Below the pieces are notes generated by a model that saw only the letters and a program-made list of their open reading frames with translations, had not been told where the DNA came from and did not search any database. DNA of 38,969 nt from Desulfobacteraceae bacterium (lineage in GTDB: Bacteria; Desulfobacterota; Desulfobacteria; Desulfobacterales; SKZT01), in assembly GCA_011389745.1 (NCBI GenBank), contig JAABTQ010000033.1, positions 1-38,969 on the forward strand. The letters run 5' to 3'. Position 1 is the first letter of the stretch, and each line of letters starts with the position of its first letter. Made by a program: the position numbers and the translations under genes. Positions 10,914 to 15,614 of the stretch are shown here, piece by piece.

Positions 10914-10942
10914 TTGACAAGTTAAAAAAATGTTGTTAGACA
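10914..10942 (+). promoter_or_regulatory. Candidate sigma70 promoter for nnr and the radical SAM gene
   Basis: A consensus -35 box TTGACA (10914-10919) is followed after 17 bp by TAGACA (10937-10942), a weak -10. It lies in the divergent galE/nnr gap, about 40 bp before the nnr ATG at 10984. An upstream in-frame ATG at 10930 falls inside this promoter, which argues against it as the start. Confidence 0.5.
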
Positions 10943-10983
10943 AATTATTATTTGGTTTTATTTTCCCAAAGAAAAGGATTTAT

Positions 10984-12552
10984 ATGAAAGTCAGCAGTGT
11001 CGAAGAAATGAGAAATCTGGATAAGATGGCTATTGAAAAATATGGCATTGCCGATGAGTTGCTTATGGAAAATGCAGGGCTTGCCGTTTACCAGGTGCTG
11101 TCTGAAAATATCGGGATTAAAAAACAACGTTTTCTGGTGTTTTCAGGGGCAGGCAACAACGGAGGGGATGGATTTGTAATTGCAAGAAAAATTCATTCCA
11201 ATGGCGGAATGGTCAAGGTGTTTTTGATGGGCAGTCCGGACAAATATCGTGGTGCGGCAAAATTAAACTACGATATTCTCAGAAAGCTTCCTGTCTCTAT
11301 AAAAATAGTTGAAAAAAAAGATTCGGTCCAGTCGGATATTTTTCACTGTGATGTGATTGTCGACGCTATTTTCGGTACAGGATTGACCCGTAATGTGGAA
11401 GGAAAATATGCGGATATTATCGAGCTGATCAATTCCTGCGACAAACCTGTCATCAGTGTGGATATACCATCAGGTGTCAACGGCGATAACGGCCAAATCA
11501 TGGGCACATCGGTATGGGCTGATTATACTGTGACATTTGGACTTCCCAAAATAGGCAATATGCTTTACCCCGGCTCTGAGCGTTGCGGCAGGCTCTATGT
11601 GACCCATATATCATTTCCGCCGTCCATGGTTGATGACATCAAGGTAAAAGTCAATAAACCCATAGTTATTCCTGAAAGAAATATCAGCGGTCATAAAGGA
11701 GATTTTGGTGAAACCCTTTTTATTGCCGGAGCTGCGGGCTATTACGGGGCCCCATATTTTTCGGCACTATCATTTTTAAAAGCCGGTGGTGGATATTCCA
11801 GGCTTGCCGCGCCAAAATCGATCACGCCGTTTATCGCAAACAAAGGAAGTGAAATTGTTTTTATACCCCAGAAAGAGAATGCCGAAGGAAGTATATCCCT
11901 TGAAAATAAGCAATCCCTGTTGGAGCTGATCTCAAAAATGGATTTTGTGGTTATCGGACCGGGACTTTCTCTGTCTGAAGAAACCCAGCAACTTGTCAGG
12001 GAACTGGTTGAAAAAATCGATAAACCAGTTGTTATCGATGGTGATGGCATTACAGCTCTTGCCGGAAATCCCGAGATCATAAAATCAAGAAAAGCGCCGA
12101 CGATACTGACCCCTCATCTTGGTGAGATGTCCCGCATAACAAAGGTGAGCGTGGCCGAGATCAATCAAAACAAAGTGGAAATTGCCCAGGTTACCTCAAG
12201 GCAACTCAACGCTTTTATTGTGCTCAAAGGCGCCCATTCTCTGATCGGGTGTCCGGACGGAACTGTTTATATTAACATGAGCGGAAATTCAGGAATGGCA
12301 ACAGCAGGATCCGGAGATGTGCTCACCGGAACAATCGCCGCCATGCATGGTTTGGGTTTATCCGTAGAAGATGCTGTCCGTAAAGGTGTTTTTATGCACG
12401 GTTTTGCCGGCGATCTGGCGGCTGAAGAAATCGGTGAAGACGGCATGACCGCCCAGGATATTTTAGAATACCTTCCCATGGCCATGCAATTGGACCGGCA
12501 GGGCCTGGATGAAGACCTCATGGAAATTTATTCAGGGGCAAAAATTATCTGA
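10984..12552 (+). CDS. nnr: Bifunctional NAD(P)HX epimerase / ADP-dependent NAD(P)HX dehydratase
   Basis: A 522-residue metabolite-repair enzyme that re-forms NAD(P)H from its hydrated, damaged form. The N-terminal half (about 1-215) is the YjeF_N epimerase, with FSGAGNNGGDGFVIARKI and DAIFGTGLTRNVEG. The C-terminal half is the ribokinase-like NnrD dehydratase, with GHKGDFGETLFIAGAAG, TPHLGEMSRI and the catalytic GNSGMATAGSGDVLTGTIAA. The frame is open to 10930, but the ATG at 10984 follows AAAAGGA and begins the conserved MKVSSVEEMRNLDKMAI. The radical SAM gene follows after 10 bp, so the two are probably cotranscribed. Function is secure from the family; the pairing with the next gene may be fortuitous. 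Confidence 0.95.
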   Translation: MKVSSVEEMRNLDKMAIEKYGIADELLMENAGLAVYQVLSENIGIKKQRFLVFSGAGNNGGDGFVIARKIHSNGGMVKVFLMGSPDKYRGAAKLNYDILRKLPVSIKIVEKKDSVQSDIFHCDVIVDAIFGTGLTRNVEGKYADIIELINSCDKPVISVDIPSGVNGDNGQIMGTSVWADYTVTFGLPKIGNMLYPGSERCGRLYVTHISFPPSMVDDIKVKVNKPIVIPERNISGHKGDFGETLFIAGAAGYYGAPYFSALSFLKAGGGYSRLAAPKSITPFIANKGSEIVFIPQKENAEGSISLENKQSLLELISKMDFVVIGPGLSLSEETQQLVRELVEKIDKPVVIDGDGITALAGNPEIIKSRKAPTILTPHLGEMSRITKVSVAEINQNKVEIAQVTSRQLNAFIVLKGAHSLIGCPDGTVYINMSGNSGMATAGSGDVLTGTIAAMHGLGLSVEDAVRKGVFMHGFAGDLAAEEIGEDGMTAQDILEYLPMAMQLDRQGLDEDLMEIYSGAKII

Positions 12553-12562
12553 AGAAAAAGAA

Positions 12563-14407
12563 ATGTTCAATGACCGTATAGCCCTTATCTCAGCTCCATG
12601 GCCTGTTTTCAACCGGCCTTCCATTCAACTGGGTGCGTTGAAAGCCTATGTTAAAAAACAAATTCCAAACATGGAGATCGTGGCCCACCATTTTTATCTC
12701 CAGCTGGCTGAATCTATCGGTTACGATGTTTATAAGGTTCTGAGTGAACGCACCTGGATTGCTGAAAGCATTTATGCTGCCATGCTTTATCCGGAAAACT
12801 TTGGAAGGATTGAAAACTTTTTTTATAAACAAACCCGCAATAAATCAGAAATTGGAAATGTACAATTCGACCAGCTTGTTCAACAGGTAGAAAATACTTC
12901 GAAAAATTTTATTTCAGAAAATTTTTGGAACAGTTGTGGATTGGCCGGATTTTCGGTATGCCTCTGCCAGTTAACCTCATCGCTGTATTTTATCCGGGAA
13001 ATCAAAACCAGGTATCCTGAAATTGTGACAGTGGCAGGCGGCTCACTGCTTGCCGCCTCCTCTGCAAAAGCCATGCTGGAGCAATTTCCCCATATCGATG
13101 CCATTATTGTGGGAGAGGGGGAAAGGCCGCTGGTGGGTCTGGTGGAACATCTGAGAAAAGACGACTCAGTGACAAATTTGCCTTTCATCAACGGAGTCGT
13201 AACCCGCCATCGATCCGATCAACCCGCGGCATGTTTTTATCAAACAGCCACTCTGACTGAAATTCCGCAGCCGGATTACCAGGAATATTTTGATGTGTTG
13301 AATAAATTTGTCCCTGAAAAAAGATTTTTCCCGATACTTCCTGCGGAAATTTCCAGGGGATGCTGGTGGAGGGGCAAAAAAGGACATAGAAAAGAAAAAG
13401 GATGCGCATTTTGTAATCTGAATCTGCAATGGAAAGGTTACAGAACAAAAAAAACAGAACAGGTGGTTTCCGAAATTGATGATATGACCTCCCGTTACGG
13501 GCTTCTAACCGTATCCTTTACAGACAACGTGATTCCCCCGAAACAGATAATTCCCATTTTCAATGCCTTGTCATCCCTGAAGAAGGATTTTCATCTGTTT
13601 TGTGAATTGAGGGCTTCTGTCAGTGAACAGGAATTAAGGGTTCTCCGGCAGGCAGGTGTTGAGGAAGTGCAAGTGGGAATCGAAGCATTAAGTACCGATT
13701 TGTTAAAAAAAATGAACAAGGGGGTCATGGCGATTCAAAATATCGAGATCATGAAACATTGCGAAGCACTATCCATTAAAGACATATCGAATATTTTGAT
13801 TTGCTTTCCCGGAAGTGATGAACAAGATGTGGCTCAAACTCTTGAAGCCATAACGTTTTTACAACCGTTTCATCCGCTTAAAATTGTATCTTTCTGGCTG
13901 GGCCTGGAAAGTCCGGTTTATCAAAATTATAAGGCCTTCGGCTTGAGTACTGTTTTTAACCACCCTAATTACCGGGTGCTTTTTCCATCAGAAATTTTTA
14001 AACGCGTTGAATTTTTGATCCAGGATTACAGGGGGGATAAAGGCAGGCTGCGAAAACTGTGGCGTCCTGTAATTGAAGCGGTTGCAGCCTGGAGAAAAAA
14101 CTATGAAAAATTAAAAGAAAAGCCCGGATCCGGTCCTATTCTCAGCTACAGTGACGGACGGGAGTTTATCATTATCCGGGAACGCCGAATTAAGGGCGAT
14201 CACCAGAATCATCGCCTGAAAGGAACATCCCGCTCCATATATCTTTTTTGTAATCATGCACGCTCAACCGGCGAAATCCTTGAAAAATTCCCAACATTGA
14301 ATGAAGAAAAGCTCATTTCCTTTTTAACCGTGATGACCCGTAAAAAATTGATGTTCGAAGAAAATGGCATTTTTTTGAGCCTGGCAGTGCCTGCGGGGCG
14401 GGTTTAG
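12563..14407 (+). CDS. B12-binding radical SAM protein of the RiPP-maturation type (TIGR03975-like)
   Basis: A 614-residue protein with a cobalamin-binding-like N-terminal region (about 1-215, ending in IIVGEGERPLVGLVEHL), a radical SAM core and a C-terminal winged region. The core begins with ISRGCWW, and the cluster cysteines are C267, C281 and C284 (CX13CX2C). VSFTDNVIPP, VQVGIEALSTDLLKKMNKG and the C-terminal RSIYLFCNHARSTGEIL and FLSLAVP resemble TIGR03975 RiPP-maturation enzymes, which as I recall have a shorter CX7CX2C spacing. Such enzymes modify ribosomal peptides or C-methylate substrates. The chosen ATG at 12563 is 10 bp after nnr, with a weak GAAGAAAAAG leader. No clear precursor peptide or exporter gene is next to it. 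The family call is fairly firm; the substrate is unknown. Confidence 0.8.
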   Translation: MFNDRIALISAPWPVFNRPSIQLGALKAYVKKQIPNMEIVAHHFYLQLAESIGYDVYKVLSERTWIAESIYAAMLYPENFGRIENFFYKQTRNKSEIGNVQFDQLVQQVENTSKNFISENFWNSCGLAGFSVCLCQLTSSLYFIREIKTRYPEIVTVAGGSLLAASSAKAMLEQFPHIDAIIVGEGERPLVGLVEHLRKDDSVTNLPFINGVVTRHRSDQPAACFYQTATLTEIPQPDYQEYFDVLNKFVPEKRFFPILPAEISRGCWWRGKKGHRKEKGCAFCNLNLQWKGYRTKKTEQVVSEIDDMTSRYGLLTVSFTDNVIPPKQIIPIFNALSSLKKDFHLFCELRASVSEQELRVLRQAGVEEVQVGIEALSTDLLKKMNKGVMAIQNIEIMKHCEALSIKDISNILICFPGSDEQDVAQTLEAITFLQPFHPLKIVSFWLGLESPVYQNYKAFGLSTVFNHPNYRVLFPSEIFKRVEFLIQDYRGDKGRLRKLWRPVIEAVAAWRKNYEKLKEKPGSGPILSYSDGREFIIIRERRIKGDHQNHRLKGTSRSIYLFCNHARSTGEILEKFPTLNEEKLISFLTVMTRKKLMFEENGIFLSLAVPAGRV

Positions 14408-14436: not shown

Positions 14437-14604
14437 TTATTTCTCGATTTTACAATCGCCACATCCACACACAGGACAATCCATCGATTGCACAGCGGTT
14501 TTGTCTTCATCGGCATCCCGGACAATTCGATCCACAAATGCCTTGAATGCATGTCCGCACTCGGGGCATAAAGCATCGACATTTTCATTATTTTCATTTT
14601 CCAT
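14437..14604 (-). CDS. Small two-CxxC (zinc-ribbon-like) protein of 55 residues
   Basis: This minus-strand ORF encodes a 55-residue protein with CPECGHAFKAFVDRI near residues 13-27 and CPVCGCGDCKIEK at the end (C43, C46, C48, C51). The two CxxC pairs suggest a zinc ribbon; rubredoxin-like iron binding is less likely because of the short loops. The start has a good ribosome binding site (AGGAAAGGAACC) and a near-consensus promoter upstream. It is convergent with the radical SAM gene, with 29 bp between the stops. It may be an independent regulator or metal-binding protein. Its cysteine-rich tail next to a RiPP-type enzyme leaves open a peptide-substrate role, but its own promoter and opposite strand make that uncertain. 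Confidence 0.75.
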   Translation of the reverse strand: MENENNENVDALCPECGHAFKAFVDRIVRDADEDKTAVQSMDCPVCGCGDCKIEK

Positions 14605-14695: not shown

Positions 14696-14810
14696 GTGAT
14701 ACTTTATATTTTCAATTTAAAAAACTATAAAGAATCACAGAATAGACTATTTTTTAAAGTTACAGTTCCTTTTGGAATCCATCACCAAAAGTTATCAAAC
14801 GGGGTATTTT

Positions 14811-15614
14811 ATGAAGCCACCTAATGATCTGAGCGATGCGCTCGTCGAAGAAGTCATGTGTGACATGGCGGAGAATTTTTTTGGTTCCAGGGTAGAAATT
14901 GATGACATGCTGGAACTTTTTGAAGAGTACGTGTTAGAATTAAAAAAAAATGCCGAAGGTGTTTCTCTCAGAGCGGGGTTGCTGAATTCCCTGTTAATAG
15001 ATTCAAAAACTATTGCTGAGTTTTATTCTAATCTGAAAGTGGACCCCCAAAATCTCACGGACAAAAATACATATTCAGAAAAAGTATTACCTGATAAATT
15101 GCCTTTCAGCATTACAGAAAAAGGCGAATTTACTAAGTTATTTCTATTTGCTTACGAGTCTTTACAACAGGCTTGCCGCGAATACGCCCGTGGTAATAAT
15201 TTTATGGGTTATAAAAATGACAGTGAAGATGAAGAAAAACAATCGGTTAATTATGCCTTGTTGCTGAATATGAGTCAGATGATCAACGAGAAGATTAAAA
15301 AAGTTAATGAGAGATCTACTATTTGTACGCTTCAGTATACCCGCCAGTTCAAGCCTGAAACCATCGAAAAAGAGCATATTGCCGGCACAGGTCTTTCGGA
15401 TATCGGATGCGATGATCTTGAAAGGAATATGAAATTTAAACCTGTAAAATTAAACTCTTACAATATTGAAAAATACCCTGAACTTCCCAAAGTCGACACT
15501 GTAAAATCTGACATAACCGCTTTTGCTAAAAAGGTATTTTCCACTAAAACAACTGCTGCAAAAAAAATACTTTCAGATATCAGGGGCAAGATCAGAGTCC
15601 GGAAAAAAAAATAA
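14811..15614 (+). CDS. Uncharacterised helical protein of 267 residues
   Basis: No domain is recognised. The protein is mostly helical and charged, with no signal peptide or membrane segment. It begins MKPPNDLSDALVEEVMCDMA, has a hydrophobic helix NYALLLNMSQMINEKIKKVN in the middle and ends in a very basic tail (RGKIRVRKKK) that could bind nucleic acid or a membrane surface. The open frame extends to a TTG at 14772, but the ATG at 14811, preceded by ACGGGGT, is a better start. The stop at 15612-15614 directly abuts the stop of the truncated phosphoesterase on the other strand, with no terminator between. Base use resembles the neighbours. It stands alone, with no operon partner. Confidence 0.7.
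   Translation: MKPPNDLSDALVEEVMCDMAENFFGSRVEIDDMLELFEEYVLELKKNAEGVSLRAGLLNSLLIDSKTIAEFYSNLKVDPQNLTDKNTYSEKVLPDKLPFSITEKGEFTKLFLFAYESLQQACREYARGNNFMGYKNDSEDEEKQSVNYALLLNMSQMINEKIKKVNERSTICTLQYTRQFKPETIEKEHIAGTGLSDIGCDDLERNMKFKPVKLNSYNIEKYPELPKVDTVKSDITAFAKKVFSTKTTAAKKILSDIRGKIRVRKKK

Follow-up and report, generated by a model that had tools for sequence, protein, structure and literature searches.

A conserved branch of the TIGR03975 radical SAM enzymes in Desulfobacterota, located outside biosynthetic gene clusters

What does a radical SAM enzyme of a RiPP-modifying family act on when no precursor peptide is encoded beside it? This question is raised by a gene in a 38,969-nucleotide stretch of DNA from a Desulfobacteraceae bacterium (the window, hereafter), in whose genome it accounts for one of about 40 radical SAM matches. 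The enzyme subfamily is already known, and the branch described here is of interest mainly because its automatic annotation, "RiPP maturation radical SAM C-methyltransferase", leads one to expect a peptide natural product that the locus lacks. A previous sequence-only reading had described the gene as an open reading frame with a CX13CX2C cluster motif that follows nnr by 10 bp, and we found it intact, encoding 614 residues. The relevant features are:

10930..12552, + strand: nnr, NAD(P)H-hydrate epimerase/dehydratase (YjeF_N plus Carb_kinase), ending 10 bp 5' of the radical SAM gene
12563..14407, + strand: B12-dependent radical SAM gene, 614 aa, intact; TIGR03975 subfamily, "NLNxQW" clade
12575..13207, + strand: N-terminal Rossmann-like cobalamin-binding region, about residues 5–215 (PF02310 below its cut-off, plus structural matches)
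13325..14122, + strand: radical SAM partial TIM barrel, about residues 255–520 (PF04055 match at 280–429, plus structural matches)
13361..13414, + strand: CX13CX2C cluster motif (C267, C281, C284) with a basic, flexible, length-variable loop (sequence, spacings in homologues, pLDDT)
13415..13432, + strand: NLNLQW block, clade marker (N285, Q289, W290; sequence comparison)
14141..14380, + strand: predicted C-terminal RRE-like winged helix, residues 527–606, β-β-β-α-α-α plus wing (DSSP of models, VIA matches)

Family, fold and clade

The TIGR03975 (rSAM_ocin_1) profile aligns with residues 6–609 of the protein over the entire model (1–606 of 606) and scores 376.6 bits, above the cut-off of 281.85 bits, while PF04055 reaches 54.9 bits with a cut-off of 29.5. 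The resemblance to TIGR03975 noticed beforehand thus extends over the full length. The best profile is TIGR03975 and not that of a plain cobalamin-dependent radical SAM family with non-peptide substrates; the next-best families score at most 63 bits, far under their own cut-offs.

Structure prediction with AlphaFold (AF2) yielded a confident model (mean pLDDT 90.1, pTM 0.88) composed of a Rossmann domain, a barrel and a C-terminal winged helix. When the full model was compared with solved structures by VIA-align, it matched the cobalamin-dependent radical SAM enzymes OxsB (Z 22.6), TsrM (Z 21.6), TokK (Z 20.9), CysS (Z 20.3) and MgmA (Z 20.0) over about residues 1–520, that is, the cobalamin-binding Rossmann domain and the barrel; the OxsB and TsrM matches are cobalamin-bound structures. 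Because of these matches, assignment as a cobalamin-dependent enzyme is supported even though the B12-binding profile PF02310 scores 26.3 bits (E 6.9e-6), under its cut-off of 32.1.

Among 297 sampled Desulfobacterota genomes, two groups of proteins exceed the TIGR03975 cut-off, with scores well apart. The RiPP-type group (571–662 bits) occurs in ten genomes, often as tandem copies, and the group of the window protein (284–403 bits) in about 36, usually as one copy. All 44 members of the latter clade match TIGR03975. In a tree of these 44 and 17 RiPP-type proteins, a 100/100 branch separates the two groups completely, which supports the suspected divergence, and identity between the groups is about 24%. 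Full-length relatives with 44–66% identity are present in 19 of the 58 genomes searched among relatives (its own included), and the titles of the best 80 of 376 homologue matches read Desulfobacterales, Deltaproteobacteria, Syntrophobacteraceae, Thermodesulfobacteriota or similar, plus one "Proteobacteria". The clade is a conserved, distinct TIGR03975 branch across Desulfobacterota that stands outside biosynthetic gene clusters and, as far as the literature searched shows, is undescribed.

Residues N285, Q289 and W290, which follow the last cluster cysteine, are nearly fixed in the clade and rare in RiPP-type enzymes; further clade markers lie in the C-terminal part (W500, V503, G532, F535, S556, F587). 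Judged by the aligned sequences, CxFCNLNxQW (the NLNxQW block) together with the conserved C-terminal domain is a better mark of the clade than cysteine spacing.

The loop between the cluster cysteines

The cluster cysteines lie in CWWRGKKGHRKEKGCAFC (residues 267–284, window 13361–13414), with 13 residues between the first and second and two between the second and third; all three (C267, C281, C284) are invariant in sets of 44 and 64 sequences. The spacing of 13 recurs in 62 of the 80 best among 376 homologues, while the others have 4, 7, 11, 12, 14–17, 21 or 25 residues; CX7CX2C, far from being common to all close homologues, is found in only two of these 80. The 62 loops of exactly 13 residues comprise 61 different sequences, which agree (or nearly so) only in an initial WW and a final G. 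Since such different loops recur in independent genomes, a sequencing error or insert artefact is ruled out and the insert is genuine. The 80 loops carry a mean net charge of +2.8, and residues 272–276 form the only segment of the AF2 model with pLDDT below 50.

As a mark of the branch, the spacing is not supported, because loop length varies (X4, X7, X9–X25) among otherwise similar members. In the wider clade it ranges from 4 to 25 (4, 7, 9, 11–17, 21, 25), and one whole subclade has 4. To judge from these comparisons, the loop is real and commonly 13 residues long, yet tolerant of length, and hence no strict motif. The CX7CX2C spacing that the sequence-only reading gave for the TIGR03975 group holds for 11 of the 17 RiPP-type proteins on the tree, but not for four with a spacing of 4 and two with 9. 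Exceptions in the spacing of cluster cysteines are not unusual according to a review (PMC8992657), and our literature search found no paper on a radical SAM CX13CX2C motif. Subfamilies should not be defined by cysteine spacing, given that a flexible loop here changes length freely.

Genomic neighbourhood and C-terminal domain

The sequence-only reading had seen no precursor, exporter or protease next to the gene, and this was borne out in the window and, as regards recurrent features, across 81 clade loci. No neighbour family occurs at more than nine of these 81 loci, and none at more than eight of 44 clade loci when antisense shadows of the radical SAM gene are set aside. The immediate neighbours belong to more than 100 Pfam families, none found in more than six of 112, and are varied housekeeping-type genes (e.g. 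WbqC, DjlA, TrmO, IOR); exporters, peptidases and second tailoring genes do not recur among them. Mining the 3 kb flanks of 44 clade loci brought up no recurrent short open reading frame except antisense or coding-overlap shadows. As a positive control, the same method placed Nif11-type precursors, assigned by eye, beside RiPP-type enzymes at loci L108, L112 and L116. Of the 58 relatives, four have Nif11 leaders and two have weak NHLP matches, but none of these is among the 19 carrier genomes. Two RiPP-type clusters, L112 (1–11376) and L113 (1–16677), hold four tandem TIGR03975 enzymes, L112 with its Nif11-type precursor and L113 with downstream frames that, by eye from their translations, resemble an exporter with a peptidase domain.

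Several local candidates were rejected as partners. The adjacency of nnr is common only to one same-family locus. A 55-residue cysteine-rich frame (about 14437–14604, − strand), considered as a precursor, occurs in only five of 58 genomes and elsewhere not beside the radical SAM gene; it is convergent with the latter, zinc-ribbon-like (CPECGH...CPVCGCGDC), gave no Pfam match and has homologues of 51–58% identity in four other genomes of the order. A 117-residue frame 3' of the radical SAM gene (L146:11855–12205 and eight other loci, i.e. nine of 81, at 21–349 bp; no Pfam match) is present in only three of 58 relatives. Apparent fusion proteins at L118, L084 and L106 are long upstream open frames that lack a Pfam domain and seem to be open by chance.

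Two further observations concern the surroundings. In the window, a 280-residue frame (14772–15614, + strand) has no Pfam match, and a homologue of 61% identity also follows the radical SAM gene, together with SMC, at same-genus locus L122. At seven loci of the CX4CX2C subclade (L091, L093, L095, L096, L101, L102, L117), an M48 metalloprotease gene, which from its sequence we take to be HtpX-type, lies 0.1–1.6 kb upstream on the same strand; this adjacency may be local synteny only.

The last 90 residues of the protein are predicted to fold into three strands, three helices and a hairpin (DSSP of AF2 models). When this domain was folded alone, the first two VIA ranks were complexes of the RRE protein TbiB1 with its leader (5v1v, Z 8.8; 5v1u, Z 8.5; rmsd 2.3 over 73–75 residues) and the fourth was the RiPP enzyme TigE (Z 7.6). 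The RRE match is a modest one: DNA-binding winged helices of ArsR/BlaI/MarR-type regulators score Z 7.9 and lower, where rows within 1 count as tied. Most regulators align only from about residue 22–35 of the domain model on, whereas the RREs cover 8–85, first strands included. Among the best 50 VIA matches listed, TbiB1 and TigE are the only named RREs. With Foldseek alone, the top 50 contained no RRE and nothing reached E ≤ 0.001, and sequence searches of the domain against the Pfam RRE and PqqD models, and against Pfam and PDB, gave no match. The order β-β-β-α-α-α is that of the strict RRE definition (PMC12710340), and C-terminal RRE fusions have been reported for proteusin enzymes (PMC7470986). 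Because TbiB1 leads the VIA matches, the order fits and such fusions are known, we regard the predicted domain, with moderate confidence, as RRE-like.

The strand predicted to line the groove (H550-R551-L552) is conserved across the phylum in the clade and diverged in RiPP-type enzymes. Clade members share 53.8% identity in this strand and RiPP-type enzymes 17.0% (whole protein: 44.2% versus 35.7%), a comparison of six columns in a 24%-identity alignment with a RiPP-type sample that is more divergent overall. Such conservation would be expected with one fixed partner, six columns being a small basis.

Substrate, chemistry and known systems

The enzyme usually occurs as a single copy, has no conserved neighbour and keeps a conserved groove strand; therefore, the most likely substrate is a single conserved peptide or protein with its gene elsewhere in the genome, as opposed to a diversifying adjacent RiPP precursor. 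We thus infer an orphan cobalamin-dependent radical SAM C-methyltransferase that would act on a single conserved, unlinked target, a reading to which we give roughly even credence. By analogy with PoyC (PMC5682303; PMC11285071), the chemistry is most likely C-methylation of an sp3 carbon by way of a deoxyadenosyl radical and methylcobalamin. SAM would methylate the cob(I)alamin that the N-terminal domain binds, and a second SAM on the [4Fe-4S] cluster held by C267, C281 and C284 would be cleaved to the 5'-deoxyadenosyl radical. This radical would take a hydrogen atom from a side-chain carbon of the substrate, docked by a recognition strand to the RRE-like domain, and the methyl group would pass from cobalamin to that carbon. 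Methylation is not certain, because some cobalamin-dependent radical SAM enzymes catalyse other reactions (PMC13331322; PbsB in PMC12257519).

Alternatively, the protein could be an ordinary RiPP C-methyltransferase whose lineage-specific precursor is unlinked, or too short or variable for the search of open reading frames. The family name, the full-length TIGR03975 match and the putative RRE-like domain would fit, and precursors of RiPPs tend to be short and variable (PMC7470986). We nevertheless consider this unlikely, given flanks devoid of a recurrent short frame, immediate neighbours without a recurrent exporter, peptidase or second tailoring gene, carrier genomes without Nif11 or NHLP leaders, and a usually single copy where RiPP-type enzymes stand in tandem.

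A small-molecule or lipid substrate, as in hopanoid, bacteriochlorophyll or cofactor biosynthesis, with the winged helix in a structural role, appears still less probable. The standalone, housekeeping-like distribution would suit it, the closest solved full-length folds include the small-molecule enzymes OxsB, TokK and CysS, and there are weaker profile matches to the HpnR, HpnJ, BchE, BzaD and PhpK families; these, however, score 50–63 bits against cut-offs of 360–650, and the kinship over the whole protein, C-terminal domain included, is with a peptide-acting subfamily. A role in RNA or DNA modification, with the winged helix as a nucleic acid-binding domain, is very improbable: ArsR, MarR and RPA winged helices score nearly as high as RREs, the Cys1–Cys2 loop is basic, and MiaB and RimO are also among the full-length structural matches, but most regulators omit the first strands that RREs cover, the MiaB and RimO matches reflect the shared core with no TRAM domain found, and the consensus of the third helix is not basic.

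Returning to a conserved, unlinked target, we tentatively suggest, as a rather doubtful extension, that in many Desulfobacterota a conserved protein other than a RiPP is C-methylated after translation, a modification so far undescribed whose enzyme would have co-opted a RiPP leader-recognition domain for a fixed target encoded elsewhere. If so, 19 of the 58 genomes searched among relatives, or about one in three, would have an unlinked peptide or protein modification without a known target, and a RiPP-type recognition domain would have been recruited to housekeeping use.

Compared with known systems, the window protein shares the Rossmann cobalamin domain and radical SAM barrel with the solved enzymes OxsB, TsrM, TokK, CysS and MgmA (Z 20–22.6), but only 13–18% identity, and its C-terminal domain is unmatched in them; TsrM carries the canonical CX3CX2C (PMC8992657), the window protein CX13CX2C. 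With the RRE domains of TbiB1 (Z 8.8 and 8.5) and the N-terminal RRE-like part of TigE (Z 7.6) the predicted domain has the β-β-β-α-α-α order in common, but identity is 6–14%, it bears an extra wing hairpin, and its leader binding is putative. MgmA and Mmp10, protein-modifying cobalamin-dependent radical SAM enzymes of different families, would resemble the window protein in the role proposed for it, modifying a conserved protein; their target is methyl-coenzyme M reductase, an archaeal enzyme, and we know of no RRE-like tail in either. PoyB and PoyC of polytheonamide are presumably characterised TIGR03975 examples. The RiPP-type TIGR03975 C-methyltransferases have the same full-length domain order, SRGCWW motif, LSLAV end and C-terminal domain; they are, however, mostly CX7CX2C enzymes, often in tandem copies, with a precursor or gene cluster and a diverged groove strand, whereas the clade of the window protein has a loop of usually 13 (4–25) residues, is usually single-copy, stands apart from precursor and cluster, and keeps its groove strand conserved.
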